A DNA stretch of 64,000 nt from Butyricimonas sp. Marseille-P3923 (lineage in GTDB: Bacteria > Bacteroidota > Bacteroidia > Bacteroidales > Marinifilaceae): contig NZ_FXXL01000005.1 in NCBI RefSeq assembly GCF_900184685.1, positions 186,001-250,000 on the forward strand, given 5' to 3'. A program made the position numbers and the translations under genes. The notes below the pieces were generated by a model. It did no database searches, was not told the DNA's origin, and saw only the letters and a program-made list of their open reading frames with translations. The first letter of the stretch is position 1; each line of letters opens with the position of its first letter. Below, in pieces: positions 1 to 34,506 of the stretch.

Positions 1-708
1 TAACGAATCTTGAGGGGCTTTCGGATCATAGCAAGTCTGAAATTCTTCCAAAGTATGGTTATGCCCGGGGAATTTAGCATCCATCTGCTCCTTGAATTTT
101 TGAGCATACTCTTCTATCACATAGCCTATTCTCCATCCCCCGTAAGTTCCGGCAAGCTTGGACTCCGGCACAACTTTATTCTTGTAATAGGAATACTCCG
201 CCAAATTTTCGGGAGCCGGAACTTTCGTCCGTTTCCCGTCGATAATCTTAAAAAATTCACCGTTACTCGTCATGTAATCCGCGTATTTATCTTTCAAACG
301 CAAAAATTCCCGATCTCCTTCCTGCATCAAGGATTCCATGACCTGCCCATCCTTACCTCCAAGGAAATTCCACCCGTTAATATCATCCGTGAAACCATTC
401 TTGTCATTATCCTTTCCGTCTGCTTTTTCTTTCGGGTTTACCCAGATCGCCTGCTTCAAATCCTCGTGCTCCACGTCCAGACCTGTCCCGATTAAAGCGA
501 CAACCGGTCTTTTCTTTATCTTTTTCCCCTTCAGAAATTCATAAGCCTTATTCACTTCTACCCCGTATACGCCATCTTGGTCAAAAGCACAATTATACCA
601 ATCCAAATCCGCTTGTTTCTTTTGTACCTGCTCATCTTGCTTAATTAACTGTGCATTCACGTTACCTATACCGATGCACACCAGTAATAATAAGAAATAC
701 TTTTTCAT
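1..708 (-). CDS. Subtilisin-like (S8) secreted protein, catalytic Asp replaced by Gly; 3' part outside window
   Basis: The ATG at 708 opens a 236-codon frame that runs off the window, so the C-terminal part is missing. Residues 1-19 form a Sec signal peptide (MKKYFLLLLVCIGIGNVNA, then Q20). Residues 67-100 resemble the start of the S8 subtilase catalytic domain as seen in Bacteroidota, including VEHEDL, an IWVN block, a DGKDNDKNGF-type acidic stretch and INGWNF. Subtilases carry their catalytic Asp in a V-x-I-D-[ST]-G motif. Here the motif reads ALIGTGLD, with Gly74 (codon GGG on the minus strand, 487-489) at the Asp position. The Ser and His regions are not visible, so activity cannot be judged fully. 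It is the last visible gene of locus 1, 116 nt after the tlpA-like gene; the spacer holds a dispersed repeat but no clear promoter. The family call is good; loss of activity is an inference. Confidence 0.8.
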   Translation of the reverse strand, partial: MKKYFLLLLVCIGIGNVNAQLIKQDEQVQKKQADLDWYNCAFDQDGVYGVEVNKAYEFLKGKKIKKRPVVALIGTGLDVEHEDLKQAIWVNPKEKADGKDNDKNGFTDDINGWNFLGGKDGQVMESLMQEGDREFLRLKDKYADYMTSNGEFFKIIDGKRTKVPAPENLAEYSYYKNKVVPESKLAGTYGGWRIGYVIEEYAQKFKEQMDAKFPGHNHTLEEFQTCYDPKAPQDSL

Positions 709-794
709 CATTTACAGAATTTATCTTGTTATACAATACGAAATCTTTAAAATTTACACGCAATGATAGACAATCGAGTAATCCACAATCACAC

Positions 795-829
795 AATCTA
801 AAATTTAAAATCTAAAATCGTAAATTACT
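795..829. repeat. Dispersed 3'-end repeat (AATCTAAAATCG type), copy 1
   Basis: An AT-rich run with repeated AATCTAAAAT units and the core AAAATCGTAAATTACT begins at the stop codon of the TlpA-like gene. Closely related sequence lies at the 3' ends of corA/DUF3467 (46111-46195) and tuf (57841-57904), so it is a dispersed repeat attached to gene ends. Confidence 0.6.
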
Positions 830-1823
830 CTCTGGCTTCCTCTATCGCCACCTTCACTTTCTCCCCTCGCAAACCTCTCGCGAGTATCCGTCCTTCCTTA
901 TCTATCAAAACGATAAAAGGGATTCCGTAAAATCCATAGGCTTTCTGAATCGTGTTAGGTTCATTACCGATCGTGAACCCCTCTTGATTCCATAACATCA
1001 CCCAAGGTAATTTCTCTTCCTCCAACATCTTACGCCAGTCCTTTTCCCGTTTATCCAACGACACGCTGATAAATTCCAAATCATCCCCTTTTAACTCGTT
1101 ATATATCGGTAAAAGACTTTTCATCTCATGCCGGCAAGGTCCGCACCATGATGCCCAAAAATCAACCAATACCAATTTCCCCCGAAAATCACTCAATCGA
1201 ACCCTTTTCCCCTCCGGATCAACATACTCGAAATCATAAGCCTCCGCACCCACGGCAAACGTTCCCAGACTATCCACCCGATGAGCCAGCCATTTCGCAG
1301 ATAGAGAATTTCGGTCAGCTTCCGGTACTAAATCCAATAACATCTTATTCGGTTCATACGCCTCCATATCGGCAATATAGGCCAACGCACTATACATGGT
1401 TCCATGTAACTTCCCTTTCACTTCTTCGGCAATTGTCTTTTTCTTCGGATTTTTCTCCGTGGGTATCCATTTCGACAATTCTAAAAAATCGTCTATCCCA
1501 TGAAAGGAGAGAGAGCTATTCCCGGGATTCTTTCCATTATAAAATCCTGTTATTGTTACCTCCCGACCACCCAGATAAATCGGTTGTTCCGTGCTGCCCA
1601 CGCTCAAAATATACACGTCCGGCATGACTTCTCCGGACATAGCTCGAAATTCTTTCCCATTGGTTACAGAAATAGATAATATCTCTTTTCCATCAATAGA
1701 AGTTACTTTGATTTCCGCAGGTTCCAGCAATCGCAACTTCCCGGATAGCACAAAATCGGTTTGAGCTATCCCGGGAGCAAACGCTCCCGAGATTAGCAAG
1801 AATACTAAAACAATTCTCAGCAT
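825..1823 (-). CDS. TlpA-like thioredoxin-fold protein with N-terminal DUF4369-like domain
   Basis: This 332-aa exported protein has a signal peptide over residues 1-20 (ending PGIA|Q). Residues 25-110 form a beta-rich segment like the DUF4369 domain that often precedes TlpA/AhpC-type thioredoxin domains in Bacteroidota. A helical linker follows, then a thioredoxin fold from about residue 195 with the redox motif WCGPC at 226-230, a YGFYGIPF segment containing the cis-Pro, and IDKEGRI. Such proteins reduce or isomerise disulfides in the periplasm. There is no lipobox. The gene starts 9 nt after the Mx1-like gene, so it belongs to the locus 1 operon; its role there may be to reduce imported peptides or to support the neighbouring secreted proteins. 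The electron donor (a DsbD/CcdA-type protein) is not in the window. Confidence 0.88.
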   Translation of the reverse strand: MLRIVLVFLLISGAFAPGIAQTDFVLSGKLRLLEPAEIKVTSIDGKEILSISVTNGKEFRAMSGEVMPDVYILSVGSTEQPIYLGGREVTITGFYNGKNPGNSSLSFHGIDDFLELSKWIPTEKNPKKKTIAEEVKGKLHGTMYSALAYIADMEAYEPNKMLLDLVPEADRNSLSAKWLAHRVDSLGTFAVGAEAYDFEYVDPEGKRVRLSDFRGKLVLVDFWASWCGPCRHEMKSLLPIYNELKGDDLEFISVSLDKREKDWRKMLEEEKLPWVMLWNQEGFTIGNEPNTIQKAYGFYGIPFIVLIDKEGRILARGLRGEKVKVAIEEARE

Positions 1824-1832
1824 ATTTTTTTA

Positions 1833-2741
1833 TTATTGCAAAACAACATTACCAATAGCTTGTAAATCTATCCCGTAGTTCTCCTTAAATTTATTTACAA
1901 GAACATCATATTTCTTCCGGATATAACCATTTACATCTTTTTTGGCATGCAATATTCCCTTGTTCGTGTAATCGTTAGCAGCCGGTTCGGCGATTAAAAC
2001 TTCATACGGGGTCTGAATGATCGCCCGCATATAAATCTCGACATCATCTTCCAGTTTCGTACCGGATTTTATATAGCCCCGCTCATACATATTCGCGTTC
2101 GTCACTCTTTCCTCGTAACTCATTCCATCGTAAAACGCCGCATCTTCCACGATCTTACTATTATTCAGCAACCGACTCAAAAAAGCATCGTTAACATCAT
2201 ATTTAAACGTATTCTTTTGAGTATTTGTCATGGTCAAAACATTCTCGTTTCCCCAATTAAATGCTAAAAAATCATACCCGCTATACACGTTGCGCAATGC
2301 GGTAGAACCGTTTGCAGTACGCCAAGTCAATTCACTACATAACAATAACTTTAATGGTAAACAACGACGTAAAGTGGAATCCGGATAAAAATCCAGAAAC
2401 AACGTTTCAATCAAATCCAACTGCTCACCCACGTAAGTTTCATCCGCGATGGCTCCAAGCAATCCATTATTGTACGGATATGCAGAACTGCTGCCTTCCG
2501 GAGTCGGTACAGACTCATTCCAACCGTCCAGATCCCAGTACAATTCTTTTAAATCGAATTTATACAAGATAAACGTATTACACCTTTCATTCCAATCCAC
2601 AATACGATCATCATAATCGTGCTCTCCCTGAGGCACGCTATACCCGAATTCAGGAGTTGCTGTCGGCGTTAAAGCATTCTCATCATCGCAAGCGACTAGA
2701 GAAACGGCTAATATAAACAAATAAATAAAATGCAATTTCAT
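1833..2741 (-). CDS. Peptidase_Mx1-like lipoprotein lacking HExxH (SusCD-associated)
   Basis: A start at 2741 gives a 302-aa lipoprotein (MKLHFIYLFILAVSLVAC, lipobox LVAC, then DDE). A start at 2762 is possible but overlaps the susD stop and lengthens the signal peptide. The layout matches SusCD-associated zinc metallohydrolase lipoproteins (Peptidase_Mx1, PF15890): a VPQGEHDYDDRI opening, an FILYKF strand, an LDLIETLFLDFYP helix, and late ERGYIKSG and EDDVEIY segments like the GFIS and NEDFAE parts of active members. No HExxH occurs anywhere; where the zinc helix should lie the sequence is TFKYDVNDAFLSRLL. The 26407-27240 paralogue has the same change. It probably binds a substrate or partner at the cell surface without cleaving it. 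The family assignment rests on pattern memory and is moderately sure. Confidence 0.65.
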   Translation of the reverse strand: MKLHFIYLFILAVSLVACDDENALTPTATPEFGYSVPQGEHDYDDRIVDWNERCNTFILYKFDLKELYWDLDGWNESVPTPEGSSSAYPYNNGLLGAIADETYVGEQLDLIETLFLDFYPDSTLRRCLPLKLLLCSELTWRTANGSTALRNVYSGYDFLAFNWGNENVLTMTNTQKNTFKYDVNDAFLSRLLNNSKIVEDAAFYDGMSYEERVTNANMYERGYIKSGTKLEDDVEIYMRAIIQTPYEVLIAEPAANDYTNKGILHAKKDVNGYIRKKYDVLVNKFKENYGIDLQAIGNVVLQ

Positions 2742-2751
2742 AACTTCTCGA

Positions 2752-4260
2752 TTAACGTTCATTTTGTTTCAAATAAGGATTACGATCTAAAGCGGATTGC
2801 GGTATCGGCAATACATAACGGGGATCTTCCCGCTCCAAGCTGATTTCCTGTTTAGATTCCGGGGCAATAAAATACACGTGTGTCAATTCAGGCATCCCGT
2901 AACGACGCAGATCAAACCAACGATGTTCCTCGAAACATAACTCTCTACGGCGTTCGTCTTTATAGAACTGTAATAATTCGTCAGCATCTGCGATATCAAC
3001 CTTCGTGTAAGTGACATTCCGCGTATCATAACGATTTTCACGCAACCTATTCAAATCATCCAAGGCCAATGTCCGGTAATTATCTTCACCTGTTTCCATG
3101 AATTTACGCGCATACGCTTCTGCCCGATTCAAGTACAATTCTGCCGTACGAATTCCCCGTGTCGCCCATTTATTATTTTTTCCACCTTTAAAACCATAAG
3201 AAGGATAAATAACAGCTCTAAAAGTAGACCAATCCATCCAAGCCTCATATTTAAAATACATATATCGCCGCAAATCCCAATGATTATCACTCTCCGCAGA
3301 AAACTCGTACAAATCCATTAACTCGTCCGACGCGGTATAAGGAGCTGTTGCCAAACCGCCCCCTCCGGGATAACACGCGGATTCCGCTTGACCTCCATAC
3401 ATCCAGATAATTTCATCACTGGTAGATTCATTATAGACACTCCAAGTACTGCTTCCCTGATATTGCATGGCATCTTCCGTCGCACTCGCCAAAGAGGTTA
3501 GAACGGACTTCTCTCCCAACACCATGTTGGCATATTTCAAAACATTATCCCAATCTTCCATGTAAAGATACACTCTACACAAAATTGACTTTCCAGCCAA
3601 GGCACTGATTTTATACAAGGACATGTCTATCCTATTTTCTTCCACTAGCTTAATCCCTTCTTCCAGATCGGTTACTATCCGTTTATACACCTCTGCCACG
3701 GTATTCCGTTCCATGAAGCCATCGTTCACCTCCATCTCCAATTTTAAAGGTACTCCCGGGTTCTGAGCCGGATCTCCATAATTATAAGGTAGTCCGTAAT
3801 AATTTACCAGTAAAAAATAATAATACGCACGTAATACAAGAGCCTGTCCCCGCATATTATTTTTTGTCTTCTCCTCCCCGCTTACCCGATCCATATAATC
3901 CATGACCGTGTTGCACCCCATGATTTTATTATAACAAACCTTCCAAGTATTATACCGGTTATCAGTGAGTTTCTCGTATATATCATCCCCCCAAGAAAAC
4001 AAGGGATATATATTCTCGACAGAACTTTCCAGCGTTTCCTGTCCTCCGGCACCATTACATTGCACATCGTCTGTAAAAAAATCAATATAAGCATATTGCA
4101 AATTGCTCATGGGATATGCCTCTCCAACCATTACCTGCATCAAATCGTCAACAGTCGACGGACGCACTTGGTCCTTACTGGATTCTTCAAGGAAATCGCT
4201 ACACCCGACGAATCCCAATAACAGTAGAAAGAATAATATATTTCTCATACGATTTATCAT
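2752..4260 (-). CDS. SusD/RagB-family outer-membrane lipoprotein (locus 1)
   Basis: This 502-aa lipoprotein has the lipobox GFVGC followed by SDFLEE, the usual opening of SusD proteins. A second possible start (MRNILF) lies four codons in. SusD hallmarks include MDYMDRVSGEEK, GQALVLRAYYYFLLVNYYG with the aromatic helical repeats, RTAELYLNRAEAYAR, FYKDERRRELCFEEHRWFDLRRYG in the last third, and a closing YVLPIPQSALDRNPYLKQN. SusD proteins cap the SusC barrel and bind the substrate before import. The start is 9 nt after the susC stop, and the downstream Mx1-like gene follows with almost no gap. With no glycan enzymes nearby, the ligand may be a peptide, as for RagB of Porphyromonas; this is inference. 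Confidence 0.95.
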   Translation of the reverse strand: MINRMRNILFFLLLLGFVGCSDFLEESSKDQVRPSTVDDLMQVMVGEAYPMSNLQYAYIDFFTDDVQCNGAGGQETLESSVENIYPLFSWGDDIYEKLTDNRYNTWKVCYNKIMGCNTVMDYMDRVSGEEKTKNNMRGQALVLRAYYYFLLVNYYGLPYNYGDPAQNPGVPLKLEMEVNDGFMERNTVAEVYKRIVTDLEEGIKLVEENRIDMSLYKISALAGKSILCRVYLYMEDWDNVLKYANMVLGEKSVLTSLASATEDAMQYQGSSTWSVYNESTSDEIIWMYGGQAESACYPGGGGLATAPYTASDELMDLYEFSAESDNHWDLRRYMYFKYEAWMDWSTFRAVIYPSYGFKGGKNNKWATRGIRTAELYLNRAEAYARKFMETGEDNYRTLALDDLNRLRENRYDTRNVTYTKVDIADADELLQFYKDERRRELCFEEHRWFDLRRYGMPELTHVYFIAPESKQEISLEREDPRYVLPIPQSALDRNPYLKQNER

Positions 4261-4269
4261 ATATAGTCA

Positions 4270-7200
4270 TTAGAAACTTAAATTCAAGCTGAATGTATAA
4301 TTTTGCGACAAGGGTTGAGAGCCGGTGGCAACTTCAGGATCTTTTCCTTTAAAATCCTTACTTACAATCATAAAAGGATTGGACACACTGAACGAGAAGC
4401 CCACATTTTGAGCAAACTTCTTGATCCATCCCTTGGACAAGTTATAGGACAGTGAAATATTGTTACACCGAAGAAAAGAAGCATTCACAACCCGGATATC
4501 CGTGTAATTATACAACCGGTAACTATAAGTACTCCCGGAAGGTAAATTCGTACTGGCATTCGTTTTCTTGTATTCCGGCAAAGCAGGGATATTCGTGTGT
4601 TCTTCATCACCCGGTTTACGCCACCGGTCTACTAAATCTTTTGGTAAATTATTATACTCGTACGGGGTACTGTTTATTATGTCGTCATCAAACATGGTCG
4701 CTAAAAACTTTTTACCTCCGACCGATAGATAGAAAGAAGAAGAAAGAGTTAAATCCTTGAATCTAAATCCCATGTTCAATCCGGCAGTAAAATCCGGATC
4801 TAACTTTCCCATATACTTCATATACACGGTAGCATCCGTGCGGGCTTCCGGGGTATCGACATCGGGCAAATTATACAGAGGGACTCCGTTCTTCGGGTCT
4901 AATCCGACAAACTCGAATGCCCAAAATCCCGACACGGGATAACCTTTCTTGTTCACGTTTCCGGCAACTGCCTGCGTCCAGTTCTCGTTCGATTCCAATT
5001 TACTGGTAACTTTATTATAATTCTTGGAGGTATTTAATCCCATGGTCCAAATAAAGTTCTTCGTCCGCACGGGGGCAAAACTAAAAGATAATTCCCAACC
5101 GTAATTTTCCAACGAACCTCCATTCATTGGCATACTCAACACGCCATTCTCAAAAGGAACCTCTTTATTAATAATAGCGTCTGTGGTCTTTTTATAATAA
5201 TACTCGAACGATCCGTTAATTTTATTCTTCCAAAACACGAAATCAGCACCGGCATTCACTGTCGCTGTCTTTTCCCATTTCAATTTCGGGTTCGGCAAAC
5301 TCTTTATTTCCATGTAATACTCACCCGTGGCACCGGATATTCCAGCCCCGGACGGTATTCTGGCTATCAAATCCGGGCTTGCCGCCTCACTTGCATTTCC
5401 TTGGTATCCGTACGTCAATCGGAAACTAAATTCATTCAAGAAATCCTGTCCCTCCAAAAAATGTTCCCGTCCCATATTCCAACGCAAACCGAAAGACCAA
5501 ACCGGAAGATAACGGGCATCCTTGTCCTGCCCGAAACGATTGGAAGCATCCGACCGAACACTGGCATTAAAAACGTAACGCTCATCGAAAGTGTAAGTAA
5601 AAGCGCCGTAGAAGGACAGTTTGTTAGACTTGTTATCAATAATAGAGGTTGTCGGTTGAGCGTACAACGTGTTCTCGCTAATACTTCCGACGTTCTGTGT
5701 CGTCAAAGGCGGATTCTTTATCGTCTGTCCTCTCTTTGGCAAGTAACCATAATATGTCCCCGTGAATCCGTCATATTTTGTACTGTTGACTTCCTGCCCC
5801 ACTGTGGCGGTAAGCAGATGTCTTCCAAAATTCTTCACGTAAGAAAATTGATTCCTCCAAGTATAGTTCTCGCTGCGTGAATCCGACATGTTCAATTGTC
5901 CCCCGTGAGGTAATCTTGAAAGTTGGTATTTATCATCATTCGGACCATACATACCAAATTCATACCCACGTATTTTCGCGATAAAATGCGTCATCTCCGT
6001 TATCCAAGATTCCCCGTGAGTGGAAGAATAGTTGTACCCTAATGCCATCTCATATTTCAATCCTTTGATAATTTCCCAATTCAAACCGATATTTACATTC
6101 AATGAATTTGAGGTATTCCCGTTACCGGACTCTGCCAACTCATTCAACACGTTGTATTTATATCCGTCACGATTGATGTAATATGCCAATTCTCCATTTT
6201 CTTCAAACGCGGGAAGAACCCGGCTCGTGGTAGACGCGTAGGAATAAGGCGAAATACTATTGTGAAAACCATTCGTTTTTGAAACGCTACCGGCAACTCT
6301 AGCCGAGAATTGCAATTTATCCCAGAAAACCGTGTTCACGTTTATACTTCCCTGATAGCTCTCGGAGTCATTTCCTTTGGCTGTACCGTTATTATTTGTA
6401 ATACCGAAAGAAGCATAATACGTAGTCTTGTCACTCCCCCCGGAAACACTGATATTGTTGGAATAACTAAACGGATTTTCATACAAGAGATCGAACCAGT
6501 CCGTATTTATGACTTCCAATTTCTTTACCCCGGTATTAAATTCATTGTAAGAAATTTTTTCCTGCAAATATTGTTGCAACAAAGCTTGGTACCCCACGTT
6601 TGCCAAAGAGGATGAACTGCCGACTAATCCGCGTTCATACATTTCCCGTGAAACATCAATTCTCTCCTTGGAATTCATTAAATTCAACTTATCATACGTG
6701 ACCTTGGAACCGATAGAGAAATTACCCGAATAGCTGATAGACATCCGCCCTTTCTCCCCTCTCTTTGTTGTGATCACGATGACTCCGTTTGCCGCTTTCA
6801 CACCATAGATTGCCGTGGCGGAAGCATCTTTCAACACGGTTACATCTTTGATATCGGAAGGATTCAACCAAGAAATGGCACTACCCACAAAATTTCGTAT
6901 CATGTCAATATTATCCGGGCTTGTATTATACGTTGATAAATCGGTCGCTTTAAAAGGAAGCGGATCTTCTTGTATAATTCCATCCACTACCCACACGGGG
7001 TCCTGACTACCTAACAACGTCGATGTTCCCCGTACCCGTACTTTCTGACGTGTCCCCACCAAACCATCCTGATTCTGGATAACTACACCCGGCAACTTAC
7101 CTTGTAATGCTTGCTCTAAAGATTGGGTCCCGTTCAGCACCAGATCCTCAGCCTTGATTGTACTCACGGAACCTGCCATATTCGATTTTTTAACCCGTTG

Positions 7201-7836
7201 ATAACCTGTCACCACAACTTCTTCCATCTCTTGTGCATCTTCCTCCATCACGACCTTTAACTCTTTCTCGCCCTTCCAAGTCACCAACTTCATTTTCATA
7301 CCCACGAAAGAAAAAATTAAAGTCACACTATCCCGTTTCGTGGTTGTAAATGTGAACTCTCCTTTTATTCCGGTAGCAACTCCTATTGTTGTGCCTTTTT
7401 CTCTGACAGTTACTCCCGGCAAAGGTTCTCCTTTTTTATCCTTCACAATCCCTTTAATAACTATCATCTTGTCCTCCGGTTTCTCATCCCTCACCCGAAT
7501 AACAATCAAATGTCCGTTAATCTCGTAAGTCAACTTTGTGTTAGCAAGGCAAATATCAAGCACATCTTTCAAATCAGCTTGCTTCACGTTGATGTTTATT
7601 GACGCAACATGCTCCACATCCTCTATCGAATACAAGAATGTAAATTCTCCTTTCTGCTCTATGAGCTTGAACACATTCTCTAACTTCCCGCCTGACATTG
7701 AAATATCATATTTCGCTGTCTGTGCCATACTTTGCAGAACGCTCATCAAAAGTAATAACACTGTCACTCTCATTTTCAAAAAAGTAATTTGCATTTTTCT
7801 CCTGCCGAGAAAACTCGATTCTCGCTTTTTTTTCAT
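4270..7836 (-). CDS. SusC/RagA TonB-linked outer-membrane transporter with STN domain (locus 1)
   Basis: This 1188-aa protein has a long basic N terminus, a signal peptide ending near QSMA|Q39, an STN domain (about 45-115, KLENVFKLIEQKGEFTFLYS), a carboxypeptidase-like domain (about 125-200, GEPLPGVTVREKGT), then EEVVVTGYQ and a plug (about 215-365). The plug holds VRGTSTLLG, PVWVVDGIIQED and VLKDASATAIYGVKAANGVI. The rest is a 22-strand-type barrel ending in YTFSLNLSF with a terminal Phe. The STN domain marks it as a signalling transporter that contacts FecR in the periplasm. It imports large ligands with SusD and TonB energy. Its plug is closely similar to that of the locus 3 SusC (28832-32440), more so than to locus 2. 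The 105-nt gap to fecR holds two hairpins with the same loop. Confidence 0.97.
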   Translation of the reverse strand: MKKKRESSFLGRRKMQITFLKMRVTVLLLLMSVLQSMAQTAKYDISMSGGKLENVFKLIEQKGEFTFLYSIEDVEHVASININVKQADLKDVLDICLANTKLTYEINGHLIVIRVRDEKPEDKMIVIKGIVKDKKGEPLPGVTVREKGTTIGVATGIKGEFTFTTTKRDSVTLIFSFVGMKMKLVTWKGEKELKVVMEEDAQEMEEVVVTGYQRVKKSNMAGSVSTIKAEDLVLNGTQSLEQALQGKLPGVVIQNQDGLVGTRQKVRVRGTSTLLGSQDPVWVVDGIIQEDPLPFKATDLSTYNTSPDNIDMIRNFVGSAISWLNPSDIKDVTVLKDASATAIYGVKAANGVIVITTKRGEKGRMSISYSGNFSIGSKVTYDKLNLMNSKERIDVSREMYERGLVGSSSSLANVGYQALLQQYLQEKISYNEFNTGVKKLEVINTDWFDLLYENPFSYSNNISVSGGSDKTTYYASFGITNNNGTAKGNDSESYQGSINVNTVFWDKLQFSARVAGSVSKTNGFHNSISPYSYASTTSRVLPAFEENGELAYYINRDGYKYNVLNELAESGNGNTSNSLNVNIGLNWEIIKGLKYEMALGYNYSSTHGESWITEMTHFIAKIRGYEFGMYGPNDDKYQLSRLPHGGQLNMSDSRSENYTWRNQFSYVKNFGRHLLTATVGQEVNSTKYDGFTGTYYGYLPKRGQTIKNPPLTTQNVGSISENTLYAQPTTSIIDNKSNKLSFYGAFTYTFDERYVFNASVRSDASNRFGQDKDARYLPVWSFGLRWNMGREHFLEGQDFLNEFSFRLTYGYQGNASEAASPDLIARIPSGAGISGATGEYYMEIKSLPNPKLKWEKTATVNAGADFVFWKNKINGSFEYYYKKTTDAIINKEVPFENGVLSMPMNGGSLENYGWELSFSFAPVRTKNFIWTMGLNTSKNYNKVTSKLESNENWTQAVAGNVNKKGYPVSGFWAFEFVGLDPKNGVPLYNLPDVDTPEARTDATVYMKYMGKLDPDFTAGLNMGFRFKDLTLSSSFYLSVGGKKFLATMFDDDIINSTPYEYNNLPKDLVDRWRKPGDEEHTNIPALPEYKKTNASTNLPSGSTYSYRLYNYTDIRVVNASFLRCNNISLSYNLSKGWIKKFAQNVGFSFSVSNPFMIVSKDFKGKDPEVATGSQPLSQNYTFSLNLSF

Positions 7837-26406: not shown

Positions 26407-27240
26407 CTAATCCGTCAATACTTTCCCGGTCAACAATTCCAGATCTATATCATGCAATCTCTTCATTTCGCTCACGAATAACTGTACTCTGGTTTTGCAC
26501 GCCGGATAACTCCGAAATCGCATATTGATGATCGTTTGACTCGTCGACATCAAATAATCTATCGTTTTTTTGAAATCTTCCTGAAGGTTCAATTTGTAAG
26601 TACTCCCGTGAATAATTCCCATATTATATCCTGCTATTAAATCTGTTGCTAACGAATAATCCAAATCCAACGCTACCGGAACTTCAAATTTCCCGTTATC
26701 AATAATATAAGTCCAGAAAGCACTATTGATATTCTTTTTGAAAGTACTTTTCGTCGTTGCTGTCATGTTCTGCAGGCTCTCGTTGATATTACCGAAAGTA
26801 ATACTGATATTTGTTGTCAAATTCGCCGCATTTGAATATCCGCTCCAGATGCTGTCCGCCAGATAAATATAATGAGGCAGGCGTCCCACGAAAAATTCTC
26901 CCGGGTAAAGATCCAACCATAAATCGAACAAACTGTTCACTCCCGCTTCAAGATTCTCTTTTTTAGGCGGTACGATACGGTAGATTCCGTACCCCTCGAT
27001 AGACTGGATATTCCATAGCGGATCATGCGCCCCGTACTCGTACAGAATAAATATCTTATTCTCGTTGTAAAAATCGAGTATCAACGAATCGTACTTCTCG
27101 TTCCCCTGCGGGAGAACGTATTTCACGGATAAGGCCTCGGAAGGAACAATCGGATCGTCATCCTGATTACATCCTCCTATCATGAAAGAACACACGGCAA
27201 ATACAAAAACTACCGGTTTCAAAAAAATCTTCCTATTCAT
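26407..27240 (-). CDS. Peptidase_Mx1-like lipoprotein lacking HExxH (locus 3)
   Basis: This 277-aa lipoprotein (lipobox FMIGGC, then NQDDD) is a diverged paralogue of the 1833-2741 protein. Shared blocks are LPQGNEKYDSLILDF against VPQGEHDYDDRIVDW, IFILYEYG against TFILYKFD, LFDLWLDLYP against LETLFLDFYP, and STFKKNINSAFWTYII against NTFKYDVNDAFLSRLL. The last block is where active members carry HExxH; no HExxH or HE pair occurs in the protein. The later GYNMGIIHGSTYKL and EDFKKTIDYLM parts keep the family outline. It starts 18 nt after the susD3 stop. A surface binding role in place of proteolysis is inferred. Confidence 0.62.
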   Translation of the reverse strand: MNRKIFLKPVVFVFAVCSFMIGGCNQDDDPIVPSEALSVKYVLPQGNEKYDSLILDFYNENKIFILYEYGAHDPLWNIQSIEGYGIYRIVPPKKENLEAGVNSLFDLWLDLYPGEFFVGRLPHYIYLADSIWSGYSNAANLTTNISITFGNINESLQNMTATTKSTFKKNINSAFWTYIIDNGKFEVPVALDLDYSLATDLIAGYNMGIIHGSTYKLNLQEDFKKTIDYLMSTSQTIINMRFRSYPACKTRVQLFVSEMKRLHDIDLELLTGKVLTD

Positions 27241-27258: not shown

Positions 27259-28824
27259 TTATAAACTCACGGGTAAACGCGGAGACGATAACGTCTCGTT
27301 CAATTGCAAGCCACTATTCAAATCTGTCACGTAAGCAGGAATTTCCAACACGTACAGAGGGTCATGCTTCTCCAACACGTATTTCTCTCGTGTATTCCCG
27401 TCAAGAGCCCAAATCTTTTCCAAACGGGGCATACCGAAACGACGCAAATCGAACCAGCGTTGTCCCTCGTAACACAACTCCTTCCGGCGTTCCAGACGAT
27501 AGATATCTATTAATTCATCGGCATTTTTCATCTCAATACCGGGAAGGGCAGCTCCGCCCGCAGACACGTAACGTTTGGAACGGAAGTCGTTCAACAATTG
27601 CAATGCCTCATTTCCTGCCCCGGCATTTCCCGCCTTGTATTGTCCCAACAATGCTTCGATCGCGTTCAGGTAAGCCTCCGTCACCCGCACTCCTTGCGTG
27701 TAAGCTGATGTTGAAGTCGGGTATTTCAAAACGGAAACCATGACACTCGTACTAATAAGTTCCTTAATAACCTGTCCCGTTTCATAATCGTAATGCGAGT
27801 CAAATACACTATCCCTTGCCACAGAGAAGAAACCGTCAGCACGGGCATCTTTCCAATCTTCACTTTCAAAGGATTCATACAGACTATAAGAAGCGACAAA
27901 CGCACTGCTGGAAAGACTGGCATCACCTATGCCCCACACGTTATCCTTGGTCCCGTACATCCAGAGAATATCATCATTTTCAGCCGTAAAAATAGCCGTC
28001 GGTACACCTTGTGTATAATCACACAATTTTTTTTGTCCCATAACCACCCGGGCATGCTCCAACGCCTTTTCCCAATTTTCCATGTACAAATAGATTCTTG
28101 AAGCCAGCAAATGGGCAGTGAGAGAAGATACCCGGTATTTCGTACTTTCCTTTTTCCCTTTATCAAAATATCTTATACTATTCTCGATATCTTCGACGAT
28201 CAACGAATAAACCTGTTCTACCGTACTCCGGGCAAGACTTAACGCCCCGATTTCCGGTTCGGTAACAATAGGAACACCCAAACTTACCTTGGGATCGTTT
28301 TTCTCGTCATTATAAGGCCAACCGTACAAATTCACCAGCTGGAAATAATGGAACGCACGCAGACAATAAGCCTCTCCTTTTAAATAATTTTTGTCAATTT
28401 CCGAACCGACGGATTCATCCGCGTATACCAGAATAATATTGCACCCCAAGATACATTTAAAATGAGCCTGCCAAGGTAACACCCCCTTAGTCGCACTATA
28501 AGTATTCCCCGCCGTATTATTAATGACATCATTTACAGCCCCGGGTTGCCACGTGTAGAATAATTTATTCTCGATATCAGCATCCCTGTATCCCGAAGAG
28601 TAAGTACTGGTCGGATAATTATTCTCCACGTCATCATCCATGTAATAGAGCATCCTATTCACAACCTGACTATTAGGCAGATATCCCTCGTACAACAATA
28701 ATTCACTAAATGCTTGGGTAGATTCCGGAGTTACTTCATCCGAAGGAGTTTTCGCCAAAAAATCATCACAAGCCTGACAGATTAGCACAAGACTTATCAA
28801 CAGTAATATATTCAATCTTCTCAT
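27259..28824 (-). CDS. SusD/RagB-family outer-membrane lipoprotein (locus 3)
   Basis: This 521-aa lipoprotein (lipobox LICQAC, then DDFLAKTPSDEVTPES) has the SusD pattern: KGEAYCLRAFHYFQLVNLYGWP, VEQVYSLIVEDIENSIRYF, LLASRIYLYMENWEKALEH, VRVTEAYLNAIEALL and IDIYRLERRKELCYEGQRWFDLRRFGMP written here in parts. It ends YVLEIPAYVTDLNSGLQLN. It resembles the locus 1 SusD in order and motif wording (LCFEEHRWFDLRRYGMPEL there), supporting a shared origin of loci 1 and 3. It starts 7 nt after susC3. Confidence 0.95.
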   Translation of the reverse strand: MRRLNILLLISLVLICQACDDFLAKTPSDEVTPESTQAFSELLLYEGYLPNSQVVNRMLYYMDDDVENNYPTSTYSSGYRDADIENKLFYTWQPGAVNDVINNTAGNTYSATKGVLPWQAHFKCILGCNIILVYADESVGSEIDKNYLKGEAYCLRAFHYFQLVNLYGWPYNDEKNDPKVSLGVPIVTEPEIGALSLARSTVEQVYSLIVEDIENSIRYFDKGKKESTKYRVSSLTAHLLASRIYLYMENWEKALEHARVVMGQKKLCDYTQGVPTAIFTAENDDILWMYGTKDNVWGIGDASLSSSAFVASYSLYESFESEDWKDARADGFFSVARDSVFDSHYDYETGQVIKELISTSVMVSVLKYPTSTSAYTQGVRVTEAYLNAIEALLGQYKAGNAGAGNEALQLLNDFRSKRYVSAGGAALPGIEMKNADELIDIYRLERRKELCYEGQRWFDLRRFGMPRLEKIWALDGNTREKYVLEKHDPLYVLEIPAYVTDLNSGLQLNETLSSPRLPVSL

Positions 28825-28831: not shown

Positions 28832-31800
28832 CTATAAATTTAAATTAATTGAAAAATTATACGATGGAAGAATCGGTACATTCATGGAACCGGCTTCCGG
28901 ATCTTCTTTATGCAACCGTTTATTCTTTATCACAAACAGATTCGTTCCCGTCAAACTGAAAGACAAAAAGGATAATTTCACGTTTGACAATATCTTCTCG
29001 GGCACTTTATAGGTCAAAGTCATCGATTTGCAACGCATGAAATCGGCACTCACTACTCGATGCTGGGAAGCATCCCACATTTCATAGATATTACTTGTTC
29101 CACCGGGGTGTATGCAAGATGCCGATTCCGTGGGACGCAAGAAACCCGGTTTGTTGGTTGTATTTTCATCCCCGGATTTTCTCCAGTGTTCAACAAATTC
29201 CACGGGCAAATTTGCATCGAATTTCGGAACGGTAACCGTATATTGCCCCTTCTGATAAACCGTACGCAACCGCTTCATTGCTCCCAAAGCAAAAGCGAAA
29301 CTCGAATTAAAGGATAAATTCCGATAGGATAGGTTCACGTTAAATCCTCCTACTATATCCGGATTTTTACTACCGGAATGTACCAGATATTTCATCGGAT
29401 CACTTCTTAATTCTTCTTTCGTGTAAGAGGTGTTTTCCCCTAAATCAAAAATAGGCATTCCATTGCTTCCCAATTCTTTAAAGTTCCACGACCAGAAAGA
29501 ACCCACGGAGTAACCTGAAAAAGCGGAATACCCGTTCAAATAACTCAAGTACACATCTCTATACCCGGGACGTTTAACCTCGTTACGCGTAAAAGCCACG
29601 TTAGCCGACAAAACGAAGTTCCAATCTTTTGTTTTCACGACATTCCCCCTCAATGACAATTCAACACCCTCATTAGTCAACTTACTATCATTAAAATAAG
29701 TTTTCTCAACCCCGTACGCCAATGGCAATTGTCTATCATATAATACCTTATCACCAAATTTGATATAGTATTCCGCTGATAGCGAGAATCTGTTTTTCCA
29801 GAATCCCAAATCCACTCCAAAATTCACGGTACGCGTCTTCTCCCAATCCAGATCGGAATTGGGGATATTTCTCAATTGTAATTGGAATTCTCCCACGTAA
29901 GGATTTATCGCATTATTTCCGGTCAGATACCCGGCTATCAATTTCGGACTCACGCCATACACCACGTTTCCCTGAAAACCGTAGCTCACTTTCACGTCGA
30001 GAGCACTTAACAAATTCTGATCTTTCATCCACTTCTCCTCCAACATGTTCCAACGACCACTCACGCTCCATATAGGAGAGAAACGGAACTTCTTGTTCTC
30101 ACCGAAGCGATTGGTTCCATCCACGCTAAAACTAGCATTCAGCACGTAACGACGTTTGTAATCATAAACCAATGCTGCCATTACTTTCACGGCATTGTTG
30201 GGTCTGTCCGAAAGTGTCACGCGGTGTTTCGACGTCGAAGAACCATAATTATTGCCTAAAAAACCGGAATCATCTTTATTATATTCATAAAAAATAGTCT
30301 TTCCCCTGTCCGGGAAATAACCATAATCACTGGAATTAAAGCCACTGCTTTTCTGTGAAGAAATTTGACCTCCACCCATAAGATTCAACGAGTGAGCCTC
30401 CTTCCACACGTGGGTAAACCGAAGTGTTCCGCGAAGTTCCCATCGGTTATTATCCTGATCGCGGCGTTGGTAATATCCCCCGTACGGGTATTGGGAAAGC
30501 TTACTTTCCATTCCCCCGATATCGACAGTACCGTAATCATACCCTCTTTTTCGTGCCATATAGGCACTTTGCTCCGTGGCGTAACCAATCTCCACTCCAT
30601 GTGCCTCCTTATAAGCAAAAAGCAGTTCGCCCCGTAAACCCTTCCAAATATCCATTTTCAAATTTGCAGAAGCAGAAAATTCCGTTGTCTGGGTTTTCTT
30701 GGAAGTGTTTGCCAACTCGTCGAAAATATTAAACGTGATCGGGTTCTCGAATTTATATTTTATCCCGTCAACATCCCCGGATAAAGATTTTATCTCGGTG
30801 ATATAACGCTCGTCAGGAGCAATCGTTCTCGATGTCTGCAAGGCATAATACATCGGGGTAGTTCCCATGAAACCCCATACTTTACGGCTCGAATAACCCA
30901 TTTTTAAATCCGCTTTCAACCATTTAGCCAATTCCGTGTTCACCCGCACGTTAGCCGTGTAACGTTTCGTGTCGTCACCTTTTTGAGTTCCCCGGTCATT
31001 AGCAAGTCCCAATGAAACATAATACGTTGTATTTTGATTTCCACCGGAAACTGACAACGAATGATTATCACTTACCGTGTTCTCGAATAGCAAATCAAAC
31101 CAATCCGTGTTAAGTTGCTCGCGGTATTGATACTCTTTCAAGGCATCCTCCAGTGACCCTTTCCCGTTCAAATAATCAATCATGGTTTTCTCGAAACCGT
31201 ACTGTGGCAACACTTCAAACACAAGGCAATCGTCAAACATCTCTTTCGTGATAGCCATTCTCTGTTTAGAATTCATCATGTTAGCCGACTTCCGGTAACT
31301 CGGACGCTCCGTGAATTTCAAATTTCCCGTGTACGACACCGTCATTTTTCGGGCACTTCCTTTTTTAGTAGTAACCACAATAACCCCATTGGCCGCTTTC
31401 GTTCCATAAATAGCGGTAGCTGCCGCGTCTTTCAGAAAAGTGATACTTTCAATATCCATCGGGTTCAAACCGGAAATGGCATTACCGAACATAGAGTAAT
31501 CTTCCCCGTCCGACAAAGCCATTATATCTTCATTCGACAGGTTCATGATATCTTCCTGAATCACCCCGTCGACCACCCATACCGGAGCGGCATTACCCAA
31601 CAATGTTGCCGTTCCCCGCATTCTCACCTTTGGCAAAGAAGAAGGACTGCCGGAACCATACAGCAACATCAAGCCCGGAATTTCACCCTGTAGAACATCT
31701 TCCACGGAAGTAGCTCCCGGCACCATAACATCTTCCATTTTCACCGTGTAGGTCGAAGCTGCCGACAATTCTTTGGCAATAGTCTGGTAACCCGTTACAA

Positions 31801-32440
31801 CAACTTCGTCTACCTCTTCCACTTTTTCCCGCATCACAATCTCGTATACCATCACTTTCGTCACCGGAACAACTTGCGATTCCATTCCCACGAAACGGAC
31901 AAGTAATTTCTCTTCTATACCGTCCTTCACGTTGATAGAAAAAAATCCCAGCGAATCCGTCACGGTTCCCTGTCGCGGGTTACTTTTCAAAAACACCACA
32001 ACTCCCGCTAACCGATGCCCTTGCTCGTCTTTCACCACGCCATGAATCCTACGCTCTCGCTGTTGTGGTTGACTAACCGTCGCTTTCTTTGCGGATATCA
32101 ATATCGTTTTATCAGAAATCTCGTAAACTAAATTAGTATTCTTCAGGCAGAGTTTCAACACTTCCTCCACGGTCGCATTTTTCACCTTCAGATCGACTCC
32201 TTTCACGGCTCTCACGTCCTGAATATTATACAGGATATAATACCCAGACAACGCGCGCAACTCCTTCAGCACCTGTTCCAGTGTCGCACCTTTCACTTCC
32301 ATTTTAATTTGCTGTTGTCCCAATCCCGGCAATGCAGACAGCAAAGTCGGGAACAGCATCATGATTACAATTAGTCGCATCACTCGCAAAATTTTACTTT
32401 TCCACCCATGCAGGTGAACAATTAATCCTTGTTTTTTCAT
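28832..32440 (-). CDS. SusC/RagA TonB-linked outer-membrane transporter with STN domain (locus 3)
   Basis: This 1202-aa protein has a basic N terminus, a signal peptide ending near ALPGLG|Q, an STN domain (about 45-115, TLEQVLKELRALSGYYILYN), a carboxypeptidase-like domain (GHRLAGVVVFLKSNP), EEVDEVVVTGYQ, and a plug with MRGTATLLGNAAPVWVVDG, VIQEDIMNLSNEDIMALSDG and LKDAAATAIYGTKAANGVI. The barrel ends PSYNFSINLNL. The plug and early barrel follow the locus 1 SusC closely (TATLLG, PVWVVDG, IIQED, NMMNSKQRM against NLMNSKERI), so the two are paralogues. It imports the locus 3 ligand and signals to FecR3. Confidence 0.97.
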   Translation of the reverse strand: MKKQGLIVHLHGWKSKILRVMRLIVIMMLFPTLLSALPGLGQQQIKMEVKGATLEQVLKELRALSGYYILYNIQDVRAVKGVDLKVKNATVEEVLKLCLKNTNLVYEISDKTILISAKKATVSQPQQRERRIHGVVKDEQGHRLAGVVVFLKSNPRQGTVTDSLGFFSINVKDGIEEKLLVRFVGMESQVVPVTKVMVYEIVMREKVEEVDEVVVTGYQTIAKELSAASTYTVKMEDVMVPGATSVEDVLQGEIPGLMLLYGSGSPSSLPKVRMRGTATLLGNAAPVWVVDGVIQEDIMNLSNEDIMALSDGEDYSMFGNAISGLNPMDIESITFLKDAAATAIYGTKAANGVIVVTTKKGSARKMTVSYTGNLKFTERPSYRKSANMMNSKQRMAITKEMFDDCLVFEVLPQYGFEKTMIDYLNGKGSLEDALKEYQYREQLNTDWFDLLFENTVSDNHSLSVSGGNQNTTYYVSLGLANDRGTQKGDDTKRYTANVRVNTELAKWLKADLKMGYSSRKVWGFMGTTPMYYALQTSRTIAPDERYITEIKSLSGDVDGIKYKFENPITFNIFDELANTSKKTQTTEFSASANLKMDIWKGLRGELLFAYKEAHGVEIGYATEQSAYMARKRGYDYGTVDIGGMESKLSQYPYGGYYQRRDQDNNRWELRGTLRFTHVWKEAHSLNLMGGGQISSQKSSGFNSSDYGYFPDRGKTIFYEYNKDDSGFLGNNYGSSTSKHRVTLSDRPNNAVKVMAALVYDYKRRYVLNASFSVDGTNRFGENKKFRFSPIWSVSGRWNMLEEKWMKDQNLLSALDVKVSYGFQGNVVYGVSPKLIAGYLTGNNAINPYVGEFQLQLRNIPNSDLDWEKTRTVNFGVDLGFWKNRFSLSAEYYIKFGDKVLYDRQLPLAYGVEKTYFNDSKLTNEGVELSLRGNVVKTKDWNFVLSANVAFTRNEVKRPGYRDVYLSYLNGYSAFSGYSVGSFWSWNFKELGSNGMPIFDLGENTSYTKEELRSDPMKYLVHSGSKNPDIVGGFNVNLSYRNLSFNSSFAFALGAMKRLRTVYQKGQYTVTVPKFDANLPVEFVEHWRKSGDENTTNKPGFLRPTESASCIHPGGTSNIYEMWDASQHRVVSADFMRCKSMTLTYKVPEKILSNVKLSFLSFSLTGTNLFVIKNKRLHKEDPEAGSMNVPILPSYNFSINLNL

Positions 32441-32508: not shown

Positions 32509-32537
32509 TCCGATAAGATTTACCCGATCTTATCGGA
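32509..32537 (-). promoter_or_regulatory. Perfect 11-bp hairpin overlapping the fecR3 stop codon
   Basis: TCCGATAAGAT (32509-32519) and ATCTTATCGGA (32527-32537) pair exactly across a 7-nt loop. The stop codon of fecR3 (32530-32532) lies in one arm. There is no T run downstream on the minus strand. The position matches the hairpins of loci 1 and 2. Confidence 0.6.
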
Positions 32538-33711
32538 TTTCTTTTATCACGATATTTCGACCCTTAATCGTGTAGTCCACGTTCTGGGTCTTTTTCAGCA
32601 TATCCAATATTTTTGAAATATTCTCGTACTTCCGGATCACCCCGTAAAAAGTCTTTTCCCGCAACACGGGCGACTCGATCGTGATATCCACGTCATACCA
32701 ACGGGCTAATTTACGCATCATACTCTCCATATTCTCCTCGTCAAACACAAAGAGCTGATCTTTCCATCCCACGTAACTCTCCACGCTGACTTCCCGGCTC
32801 TCGATATTCCCCGTGCGTACATTCATCTCGGCCTGCCGTCCGGGAGTCAGCACCACCGGTTGTCCCGGCTGTATTTCCGAAGTTACCCGCACACTTCCGT
32901 TTACCAACGTAGTCTGTATCACGGGCTCATTCCGATAAGCCATTACATTAAACGCAGTACCCAACACCCGTATTGCCACACCTTCACAATGTACCTCAAA
33001 CGGTTTTCCCGTGCGTGTCACCTCGAAATAGGCTTCACCTTCCAGATACACATCCCGTCGCTCACCCGTGAAAACCACCGGGTAACGCAACCGGGTTTCC
33101 GAATTCAACCACACCCGTGTCCCGTCTGCCAGTGTCAATCGATACTCTCCCCCGCGGGGAATAATTATCGTGTTGTACTCCAACTTTGTCCCCGAAACAT
33201 TTCCATCCACTTGATAAGCGAGTATATTTGAATCATTCTTTACCATTATTCCGGCCATACGCGAAAGGTCTTTTGCCTCTCCGGCTGTCAAATCTATCCT
33301 GCTGCCGTCAGCCATTTCCAATATAGCACGTTCTCCACCGGGAAGCACATCCGCCACCACCGGACTCGGCTTCTGCTCTTCGCTCGTGAATAAAAGGATT
33401 CCTACAGCCAGCAAAGGTATCAATAACACGGCAGCCACCCGCACAAACCAACGTATCCGTCGAACTTTTCGTCCGGTCTGCCGCACGCCGGACATTACCC
33501 TCTCCTTCATCTTTTCCAAAGAATAAGCCTCATATTCCCGCAATCTTCCGGCAACAAATTCCGCCTCCGTCACCCGTTCGTAAAAAGCCTTATGTTCATC
33601 ACTTTCCGCCAACCATTCTTCCAAAGCTTTCTCTTCATCCGGAAGAATAATTCCTTTCATTCGGGCTGCAATCCACGAAGCTATCTTCAAATTATTTTTG
33701 TCATTTACCAT
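32530..33711 (-). CDS. FecR-family anti-sigma factor (locus 3)
   Basis: This 393-aa protein has a cytoplasmic domain (about 1-87), one span at about 89-108 (VRVAAVLLIPLLAVGILLF), a periplasmic FecR core (IPRGGEYRLTLADGTRVWLN, LRYPVVFTGERRDVYLEGEA, PFEVHCEGVAIRVLGTAFNV) and a DUF4974-like C terminus (FDEENMESMMRKLARWYDV). It controls sigma3, encoded 195 nt upstream. Its last codons and stop form one arm of a hairpin. Confidence 0.96.
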   Translation of the reverse strand: MVNDKNNLKIASWIAARMKGIILPDEEKALEEWLAESDEHKAFYERVTEAEFVAGRLREYEAYSLEKMKERVMSGVRQTGRKVRRIRWFVRVAAVLLIPLLAVGILLFTSEEQKPSPVVADVLPGGERAILEMADGSRIDLTAGEAKDLSRMAGIMVKNDSNILAYQVDGNVSGTKLEYNTIIIPRGGEYRLTLADGTRVWLNSETRLRYPVVFTGERRDVYLEGEAYFEVTRTGKPFEVHCEGVAIRVLGTAFNVMAYRNEPVIQTTLVNGSVRVTSEIQPGQPVVLTPGRQAEMNVRTGNIESREVSVESYVGWKDQLFVFDEENMESMMRKLARWYDVDITIESPVLREKTFYGVIRKYENISKILDMLKKTQNVDYTIKGRNIVIKEIR

Positions 33712-33790
33712 ACTTGCATTTCCACCATTTGAACAAATAACGACTACCCTATCAAAAAGAATGACAAGTTTTCCATTTATTTTGAAAAAA

Positions 33791-33894
33791 AATAATCCAC
33801 CTTAAAAATTAACCGATACGAACTAAACAAAATCCGATATAAATTCTTGGAAACTACACCGTGTTTTACACGGATTTCGCCATACCGGATTATT
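33791..33894. repeat. Palindromic elements in the sigma3-fecR3 spacer
   Basis: Outer arms AATAATCC (33791-33798) and GGATTATT (33887-33894) enclose a tight hairpin CCGTGT/ACACGG with a 3-nt loop (33859-33873). The 195-nt spacer has no supported gene. The arrangement recalls the larger palindrome in the sigma2-fecR2 spacer. Confidence 0.4.
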
Positions 33895-33906
33895 CAGCAA
33901 CAATCT

Positions 33907-34506
33907 CTACAGCCATAAAAAAGCTTCCCCGAAAACCACTAATACGACTCCTGCACCAAAACGATTTTTCAAGGTCGTCATCGCCCGTTGTTTTTGTGTT
34001 TTCACCGTGTGGATAGATACTTTCAACGTGTCGGCAATCTCTTGATTACTCAATCCCTCCAACCCTAATTTGAATACCCGGGCACATTCGGTCGGCAATT
34101 CTTCTATCGCCCGATAGAGTTGCCCCAGCAATTCCTCCTCGATCATCTTCTCGTCCAAAGTATCTTCGCTCAACTCCCGAATCAGCTCGTTTTCATGCTT
34201 CTCTATCACTTGCTGATGCTTTAATTGATCCAAACACTTATTCCGGGCACTCTGGTAAAGAAATACACGAATCGGTAGTAAAGCAACAAAATCTTTCCGT
34301 CGTTCCCACAAACTCATAAAACTTTCCTGTACAATGTCTTCCGAGAAAACATCATTTTTCAGAATAGAGTTACAATAAAAATAAAGAGACTTGCCGTAAG
34401 TCGTCAACAAGAAAGCCAAAGCTTCCTCATCGCTTTCCCGGAGTCTTTTCACCAGATAATCCGGCTCTTCCCGAAATCTCTTGTTTTGTAAACTTCTATC
34501 TATCAC
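33907..34506 (-). CDS. ECF-type RNA polymerase sigma-70 factor (locus 3)
   Basis: This 199-aa ECF sigma factor has region 2 (LLTTYGKSLYFYCNSILKND, EDIVQESFMSLWERRKDF, IRVFLYQSARNKCLDQLKH) and region 4 (IEELPTECARVFKLGLEGLS, NQEIADTLKVSIHTVKTQKQ). The frame opens with GTG at 34504-34506; no in-frame ATG gives a full region 2, so GTG is the likely start. A hydrophobic C-terminal tail (GAGVVLVVFGEAFLWL) extends beyond region 4, which is unusual. The gene starts 21 nt after the 869-aa protein gene with no visible terminator, so it may also be transcribed from upstream. Confidence 0.93.
   Translation of the reverse strand: MIDRSLQNKRFREEPDYLVKRLRESDEEALAFLLTTYGKSLYFYCNSILKNDVFSEDIVQESFMSLWERRKDFVALLPIRVFLYQSARNKCLDQLKHQQVIEKHENELIRELSEDTLDEKMIEEELLGQLYRAIEELPTECARVFKLGLEGLSNQEIADTLKVSIHTVKTQKQRAMTTLKNRFGAGVVLVVFGEAFLWL

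Follow-up and report, generated by a model that had tools for sequence, protein, structure and literature searches.

Catalytically inactivated protease homologues and thiol-disulfide proteins encoded behind SusCD importers of Butyricimonas suggest a peptide capture and reduction system

The stretch of DNA analysed here (the window: 64,000 nucleotides, positions 186,001 to 250,000 of contig NZ_FXXL01000005.1 of Butyricimonas sp. Marseille-P3923, assembly GCF_900184685.1) carries three loci for SusCD outer-membrane importers, together with genes for protease homologues and thioredoxin-type proteins. Pfam scans of 25 window proteins and direct reading placed all three loci in tandem on the minus strand, with locus 1 running from 34506 to 23510, locus 2 from 23379 to 10970 and locus 3 from 9789 to past base 1, the left window edge. 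A plug-bearing SusC receptor followed by a SusD lipoprotein, the arrangement expected of a SusCD importer, was found by Pfam in each of them. The genes, in window coordinates and with the basis of each assignment, are listed below (ECF, extracytoplasmic function; aa, amino acids).

Locus 1, 33907..34506 (-): ECF sigma factor (Sigma70_r2/r4_2)
Locus 1, 32530..33711 (-): FecR-type anti-sigma factor (FecR and FecR_C)
Locus 1, 28832..32440 (-): SusC with STN domain (STN, CarbopepD_reg_2, Plug)
Locus 1, 27259..28824 (-): SusD (SusD-like_3 and SusD_RagB)
Locus 1, 26407..27240 (-): pseudo-Mx1 lipoprotein, 277 aa (no Pfam match of its own; assigned by family clustering; HExxH column reads FWTYI)
Locus 1, 23510..26275 (-): Met-zincin with intact HEIGHTLGFMH (PF16313/DUF4953, 3.8e-98; DUF5117)
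Locus 2, 22834..23379 (-): ECF sigma factor (Pfam)
Locus 2, 21302..22492 (-): FecR (Pfam)
Locus 2, 17924..21220 (-): SusC (Pfam; STN match under the Pfam cut-off)
Locus 2, 16488..17909 (-): SusD (Pfam)
Locus 2, 15684..16475 (-): DUF4843 lipoprotein (Pfam)
Locus 2, 14132..15667 (-): PKD-domain lipoprotein (PKD, 6.7e-6; the family profile retrieves PKD chains in the PDB)
Locus 2, 13595..14125 (-): Thioredoxin_8/Redoxin protein with WCGPC (Pfam and motif)
Locus 2, 12058..13590 (-): secreted protein of 510 aa (no Pfam match)
Locus 2, 10970..12037 (-): thioredoxin-domain protein with WCGPC (Pfam and motif)
Locus 3, 9184..9789 (-): ECF sigma factor (Pfam)
Locus 3, 7942..9105 (-): FecR (Pfam)
Locus 3, 4270..7836 (-): SusC with STN domain (Pfam)
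Locus 3, 2752..4260 (-): SusD (Pfam)
Locus 3, 1833..2762 (-): pseudo-Mx1 lipoprotein, 309 aa (structure model similar to 4l7a; HExxH lost)
Locus 3, 825..1823 (-): TlpA-like thiol-disulfide protein with WCGPC (AhpC-TSA/Redoxin/Thioredoxin_8)
Locus 3, 1..711 (-): pseudosubtilase, first 237 of 567 aa (full gene C3:185011-186711; PF00082, 9e-24 on the full length)

An initial annotation of this DNA had described three sigma-FecR-SusC-SusD loci followed by protease homologues, CxxC thioredoxins or both, and this was confirmed by the Pfam scans; the STN domain that it gave to all three SusC proteins was recovered at loci 1 and 3, while the match of locus 2 lay below the Pfam cut-off (20.5 vs 28.4 bits). 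The absence of glycan enzymes that it reported also held, as none of the 22 proteins encoded there gave a match to a glycoside hydrolase, lyase or sulfatase family at E<=0.001 (four of the 22 had no Pfam match at all, one of these being recognised as a subtilase when taken at full length). The TlpA/ResA-like proteins exceeded the Pfam cut-offs for a CxxC thioredoxin-type domain and carry WCGPC; the NCBIfam cut-offs were not reached, either for ResA by the 13595-14125 protein (80.8 vs 170 bits) or for TlpA by the 825-1823 protein (79.5 vs 230 bits). An active zinc protease was part of the idea put forward in that annotation, and the Met-zincin of locus 1 retains its full HExxHxxGxxH motif within the PF16313 domain.

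The lipoprotein of approximately 310 amino acids encoded after SusD in loci 1 and 3 is, by profile and fold comparison, zincin-like and related to Peptidase_Mx1 but has no HExxH, and was designated pseudo-Mx1 (psMx1). A search of the PDB with the family profile at E<=1 returned only 9urd (E 0.0041), which is titled 'substrate import-associated zinc metallohydrolase lipoprotein', and 4l7a (E 0.0054), and hhalign aligned the family with the three HExxH-bearing Mx1 proteins of this genome at a probability of 98.6% (E 7.6e-16). A structure model of the locus 3 protein (pLDDT 81.9) was similar to 4l7a in Foldseek (E 2.7e-6), but with a TM score of only 0.41-0.47; VIA-align superposed the two with Z 13.6 and an rmsd of 4.5 over 219 aligned residues, and the rows below 4l7a (Z 6.6 or less, to a large extent other zinc-protease folds) were not used as evidence. 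The HExxH motif was missing from all 22 members sampled in this genome, which form a cluster built by similarity, and likewise from each of 12 relatives found elsewhere; the three HExxH-bearing Mx1 proteins of this genome fall outside the cluster. Both the zincin-like fold and the lipobox of a Peptidase_Mx1/TIGR04549 lipoprotein were found in psMx1; the lipobox cysteine is invariant and, judged by eye, at least two of the next five residues are acidic in 21 of the 22 members. Because acidic residues in this position are described as a surface-export signal of Bacteroidetes lipoproteins (PMC5080379), psMx1 is probably located at the cell surface. No other protease-like protein of the three loci has such a signal; the N-termini of the pseudosubtilase, the thioredoxins and the Met-zincin resemble those cut by signal peptidase I (also by eye), and these proteins are probably periplasmic. 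The surface pseudo-proteases of the initial annotation were therefore recovered as proteins without catalytic motifs, the HExxH of psMx1 and the triad of the pseudosubtilase both being gone, but a surface location is indicated for psMx1 alone.

The full-length locus 3 pseudosubtilase (567 aa) matches PF00082 over the whole domain, and its catalytic triad has been lost, with Asp changed to Gly, His to Thr and Ser to Gly. Its nearest named relative (85%) is in Butyricimonas synergistica DSM 23225. In this genome, all three triad residues are gone from each of the three subtilases found in SusC-SusD-psMx1-TlpA-S8 loci; another subtilase linked to SusCD keeps Asp, with Glu and Lys replacing His and Ser, and the triads of the remaining four are intact. 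A profile of the three dead copies was scanned against named genomes and gave 31 loci, 12 of which contain this gene cassette (Butyricimonas, Odoribacteraceae, Bacteroides reticulotermitis, B. congonensis and Pedobacter punctiformis; one of the 12 contigs is cut, leaving psMx1 and S8 alone visible). Asp and His were lost in 12/12 of the cassette subtilases and Ser in 11/12, and D-H-S was kept in 19/19 of those outside the cassette.

A survey of the family gave strong subtilase matches in 12 of 56 genomes, and 30 loci of 31 matches were examined; it overlaps in species with the named-genome survey, and the counts are kept separate. psMx1 was found beside the subtilase in 21 of the 30 loci, with Asp and His lost in 20 and Ser in 18. 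Locus L136 keeps Ser, the sequence of L139 ends early, and L140 (genome G047) has all three triad residues in the same cassette gene order and is likely to encode an active counterpart of the pseudosubtilase. At three further loci with aspartyl-type neighbours, where psMx1 was not seen in the short flank, His and Ser were lost. Subtilases without cassette neighbours, meaning none inside the short flanks examined, were intact in 25/25 cases (6 family loci and 19 from a phylum survey), and two of the six family loci had thioredoxin neighbours. The phylum survey covered 395 genomes, 68 of which had a match at E<=1e-60, and triads were read for the 19 best non-self matches. As only the window's own genome scored above 313 bits (own copies >1100), the cassette appears to be rare in this sample, where more diverged dead copies may also occur.

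In a tree of 56 subtilases, from which the truncated L139 was left out, the 24 dead cassette rows (23 different, two being identical) formed a single clade (100/100), whose sister consisted of the intact L140 and a pair with Glu/Lys-Arg (98/86); support for the whole group was 100/96. Given this placement and the shared gene order of L140, the simplest reading is that the ancestral locus had an active protease and that catalysis was lost at least twice. The dead subtilase is under purifying selection: its omega between this genome and B. synergistica was 0.047, the lowest in the operon (0.06-0.09 for the other genes, 0.085 for psMx1), all of these values being rough given nearly saturated synonymous sites.

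Locus 3 is one instance of the cassette, whose gene order is SusC-SusD-psMx1-TlpA-pseudosubtilase-aspartyl protease-(degenerate aspartyl domain::thioredoxin). Its carriers are relatives of Butyricimonas, two Bacteroides and one Pedobacter, and up to four copies were present in one genome (G009). The pseudosubtilase gene is usually followed by one or two aspartyl-protease-like genes. After three open reading frames of <=350 aa from other genomes had been dropped and the duplicate L002/L001 gene counted once, both D-T/S-G motifs were found to be kept in 15/15 distinct single-domain genes aligned. The last gene encodes a degenerate aspartyl-protease-like domain with a C-terminal WCGPC thioredoxin in 14/14 cases, the aspartyl motifs reading DL[AST] and DTW in 13/14, while the copy from Pedobacter has DPR and DFY. 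The strongest indication that a single cargo, which would be an imported peptide, undergoes both thiol-disulfide exchange and protease-like handling comes from this fusion together with the TlpA gene that stands before the pseudosubtilase. No paper on a SusCD-thioredoxin-pseudoprotease cassette was found in a literature search limited to open-licence PMC papers.

The genome (5.3 Mb) gave 134 SusD matches, or 133 after one split gene was joined, as well as 45 Met-zincin, 89 Thioredoxin_8 and 9 Mx1 matches (3 of the last strong), which are matches and not curated genes; for Thioredoxin_8, scores were obtained for 150 of 172 candidates, with two matches in some frames. On the same strand and <=13 kb downstream of a SusD gene lay 38/45 of the Met-zincins, 67/89 of the thioredoxins and 9/9 of the Mx1 matches, compared to 16% of random positions, and 70 of the 133 SusD genes had at least one such match downstream. 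The concentration of cargo matches behind SusD thus extends across the genome, and the three window loci, out of 133, are a few instances of it and do not form a unit of their own. The co-occurrence that the initial annotation suggested surveying was found for cargo and SusD genes; that between psMx1 and thioredoxins was weak (see below).

For closer reading, 57 random loci of the 130 outside the window were sampled alongside the three window loci, and 56 remained after L005 was dropped for its split SusD. Two layouts recur after SusC-SusD, namely the ~310-aa lipoprotein (20/56 sampled loci, plus window loci 1 and 3) and DUF4843 with PKD lipoproteins (22/56, plus window locus 2), one stretch having both. 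Thioredoxins were present in 27 of the 56 same-strand runs, Met-zincins in 11 and an ABC transporter in 9, such counts possibly taking in genes beyond the next sigma gene (e.g. at L047). The ABC-bearing loci (L012, L024, L028, L029, L033, L045, L050, L051 and L058; 6 of DUF4843-PKD and 3 of psMx1 type) have an ABC ATPase with ABC-2/ABC_transp_aux genes, which we take to be Gld-like. Among 86 other downstream proteins there were at least five glycoside hydrolase matches, GH92 and alpha-L-fucosidase accounting for at least two each and melibiase for at least one, and several peptidases of the S9/DPPIV, M13, BSP, trypsin-like and Mx1 types. At L048, SusCD-DUF4843-PKD is followed by three related genes of ~780 aa, one of which directly matched a DPPIV/S9 peptidase; the three DPPIV/S9 matches among the sampled downstream proteins are probably these genes.

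Loss of catalytic motifs was also observed among the Met-zincins, where HExxH was gone from 4 of 18 copies (17 sampled, 1 from the window), each following an intact copy in tandem (L019, L023, L049 and L051, reading KYLGE, REIGS, QRVGI and RETGI). Tandem Met-zincins often combine an intact with a dead copy in this way, which again points to non-catalytic proteases as a recurring feature of the genome. The locus 2 protein of 510 aa was considered as a gingipain (C25) relative and was not counted as a pseudo-protease. Relatives occur in 18 of the 56 family genomes, its own included, and 8 of 11 aligned members have HATE and GNC motifs, which we presume to be linked to C25; the locus 2 copy and its two nearest relatives have Tyr for His, lack the Asn and, where the motif has its Cys, carry Ser, Cys and Ala, the locus 2 copy thus being without these motifs. 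No C25 match for the family was found in Pfam or by PDB sequence search, hhalign with the single C25 match of the genome gave 0.4%, and a single-sequence structure model was unusable (mean pLDDT 35). A relationship of the DUF4843 and PKD lipoproteins to BT2261/BT2262, which are presumably represented in the PDB, was likewise set aside, as no such chain was among the PDB profile matches listed.

The analysis thus shows which genes the loci contain and how they are arranged, that catalytic residues have been lost, and that the dead proteases are conserved and under selection. The earlier interpretation is partly supported, since these pseudo-proteases are real and both gene order and a gene fusion connect them with thiol-disulfide proteins. 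The loss of protease activity in a thiol-disulfide neighbourhood suggests, short of proof, a system for peptide capture and reduction. Import of peptides with thiol reduction in the periplasm is the best-supported mechanism, and we assign it a probability of roughly 45%; what we infer is its substrate, the reduction of substrate disulfides, where the proteins are located in the cell and what the dead proteases do. Each locus would be a substrate-induced outer-membrane importer with SusC as barrel and SusD as lid, the ECF sigma/FecR pair probably reading the N-terminal domain of SusC, as in known sigma/FecR systems. At loci 1 and 3 the Mx1-derived lipoprotein without a metal site would sit by SusCD at the cell surface, and the most likely cargo would be peptides or protein fragments. 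In the locus 3 cassette this cargo would pass through SusCD; in the periplasm the TlpA-like protein and the thioredoxin fusion would open it and the intact aspartyl protease would cut it, a task that at locus 1 would fall to the intact Met-zincin. psMx1 and the pseudosubtilase, themselves non-catalytic, would most likely be binding or hand-over subunits derived from former proteases. A more specific proposal, tentative and on balance doubtful, is that the cassette is a dedicated reductive importer whose cargo is disulfide-bonded peptides. Former proteases of three classes would then have become non-catalytic substrate handlers, one located at the surface and the other two periplasmic, with one of the periplasmic pair fused to the reductase itself.

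That SusCD pairs can have oligopeptide ligands, as the initial annotation noted for RagAB, is stated for RagAB and BT2261-64 in PMC7782687. Several results nevertheless weigh against peptide import with thiol reduction. The PDB chain nearest to the SusC of locus 2 is RagA (6sli, 3.9e-55), with another SusC homologue at 3.5e-52, and the nearest to those of loci 1 and 3 is 8ypu_C (1.2e-91 and 1.5e-111), RagA reaching 1.9e-55 for locus 1; similarity to RagA therefore does not discriminate, and the case for peptides is built on the cargo genes and not on the importer. The locus 3 SusD is nearest to 8ypt_A (1.2e-38). None of the three cargo families was found downstream of 63 of the 133 SusD genes, no thioredoxin is in the gene set of locus 1, and psMx1 loci of the sample were enriched for thioredoxin only weakly (13/20 vs 14/36, P =0.094). 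SusC of thioredoxin loci had slightly more cysteines than that of other loci (4.1 vs 3.0, P =0.053). The degenerate aspartyl domain of the fusion is likely, not certain, to be inactive, because the Asp of most motifs stays while T/S-G is lost. All 23 dead subtilases compared are without the oxyanion AAGN and without the S-[LF]-G strand, and they share a new motif (QN..YP in 19/23, YP in 22/23; both read by eye); the pseudosubtilase is, by these motifs, rebuilt and not decaying, and it may no longer hold a peptide as subtilisin does. Finally, a SusC-SusD pair lies downstream of 10 of the 19 intact named subtilases, so that linkage to SusCD alone does not entail loss of catalysis, which tracks the cassette. 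These ten loci (L080-L083, L085, L086, L088, L089, L091 and L092; DUF4843 is present in 9/10) come from Bacteroides, Coprobacter, Hoylesella, Prevotella and a Bacteroidales metagenome-assembled genome and represent a different, probably catalytic, S8-SusCD pairing.

SusCD systems are mostly known for glycans, and the loci could import glycopeptides, glycans or another non-peptide nutrient, with protease homologues trimming glycoprotein backbones and thioredoxins as accessories. A GH92 gene close to locus 1 and the glycoside hydrolases among the 86 downstream proteins fit such an import, which we consider unlikely as the three loci themselves have no glycan enzyme and the sample has few compared to its thioredoxins (27/56) and Met-zincins (11/56). 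A role in envelope quality control we hold improbable, too: the thioredoxins and protease homologues would keep SusCD and other surface proteins reduced, folded or cleared, and the dead proteases would be chaperone-like. Pseudo-proteases are often scaffolds or chaperones and TlpA-like proteins general thiol-disulfide proteins, and the slight cysteine excess of SusC would agree with this; SusD has no such trend (4.5 in thioredoxin loci vs 5.4 in others, P =0.14), and the cassette is bound to its locus, in up to four copies per genome and usually with a motif-intact aspartyl protease. Since SusD is not richer in cysteine there, the thioredoxins are not obviously for maturing the proteins of their own locus, an idea that found no clear support in the SusC and SusD counts.

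A sigma/FecR pair ahead of each locus and a pseudosubtilase that is conserved yet non-catalytic would also be expected if the dead proteases were decoys, binding inhibitors of proteases or sensing peptides, with SusC/FecR signalling and not nutrition as the main output; this is rather remote, as the pseudosubtilase lacks (by eye) the lipoprotein surface signal expected of a decoy and the thioredoxins would be left unexplained. Sigma/FecR pairs precede many SusCD loci, and import of metal or haem, which they might suggest, was set aside for this reason. Under iron limitation, SusD genes were among both the raised and the lowered genes (PMC10434189), which does not decide whether such limitation is a shared inducer. 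It is very improbable that the protease homologues are decaying copies without functional meaning, for although dead second Met-zincins exist (4/18), omega is low for the pseudosubtilase and psMx1, open frames and gene order are kept across genera and the dead subtilases share their new motif.

Other genes lie close to the loci. An open reading frame for a choloylglycine hydrolase (CBAH, 5.9e-68) is present between loci 2 and 3 (9778-10932, +) and, counted from its first TTG, shares 12 bases with the locus 3 sigma gene. Directly upstream of the locus 1 sigma gene is a gene for an 869-aa protein (34528-37137, -) with a weak MG2 match (29.1 vs a cut-off of 32.8), and the GH92 glycoside hydrolase gene (39424-41787, +), just outside the loci, is divergent from an Na/H exchanger-Usp gene.

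Most work on SusCD systems has concerned glycans, and a gut lineage with 133 SusD genes, half of them with protease or thioredoxin genes behind, points to an under-studied non-glycan side. A locus protease turned into a conserved non-enzyme beside a degenerate aspartyl::thioredoxin fusion offers a testable handle on peptide capture, reduction and cutting, and should the peptide reading be wrong, the cassette would still call for explanation.

Compared to known systems, the window loci share the sigma/FecR-SusC-SusD layout with polysaccharide utilisation loci and differ from them in having no linked carbohydrate-active enzymes. psMx1 shares with TIGR04549/Peptidase_Mx1 (9urd, 4l7a) its place after SusD, its lipoprotein nature and the zincin-like fold, but HExxH is absent from every psMx1 sampled, and only 2/22 reach TIGR04549 at E<=0.1. 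The pseudosubtilase matches Peptidase S8 over the whole domain; unlike that family it has no catalytic Asp, His or Ser and no oxyanion Asn, and it carries a new conserved motif. RagAB of Porphyromonas gingivalis and BT2261-64 of Bacteroides thetaiotaomicron have a SusC/SusD pair, as the window loci do, and in sequence RagA is the nearest solved SusC to that of locus 2, loci 1 and 3 being nearer to 8ypu/8ypt; to our knowledge, RagAB is without a thioredoxin or pseudo-protease cassette of the kind encoded here.

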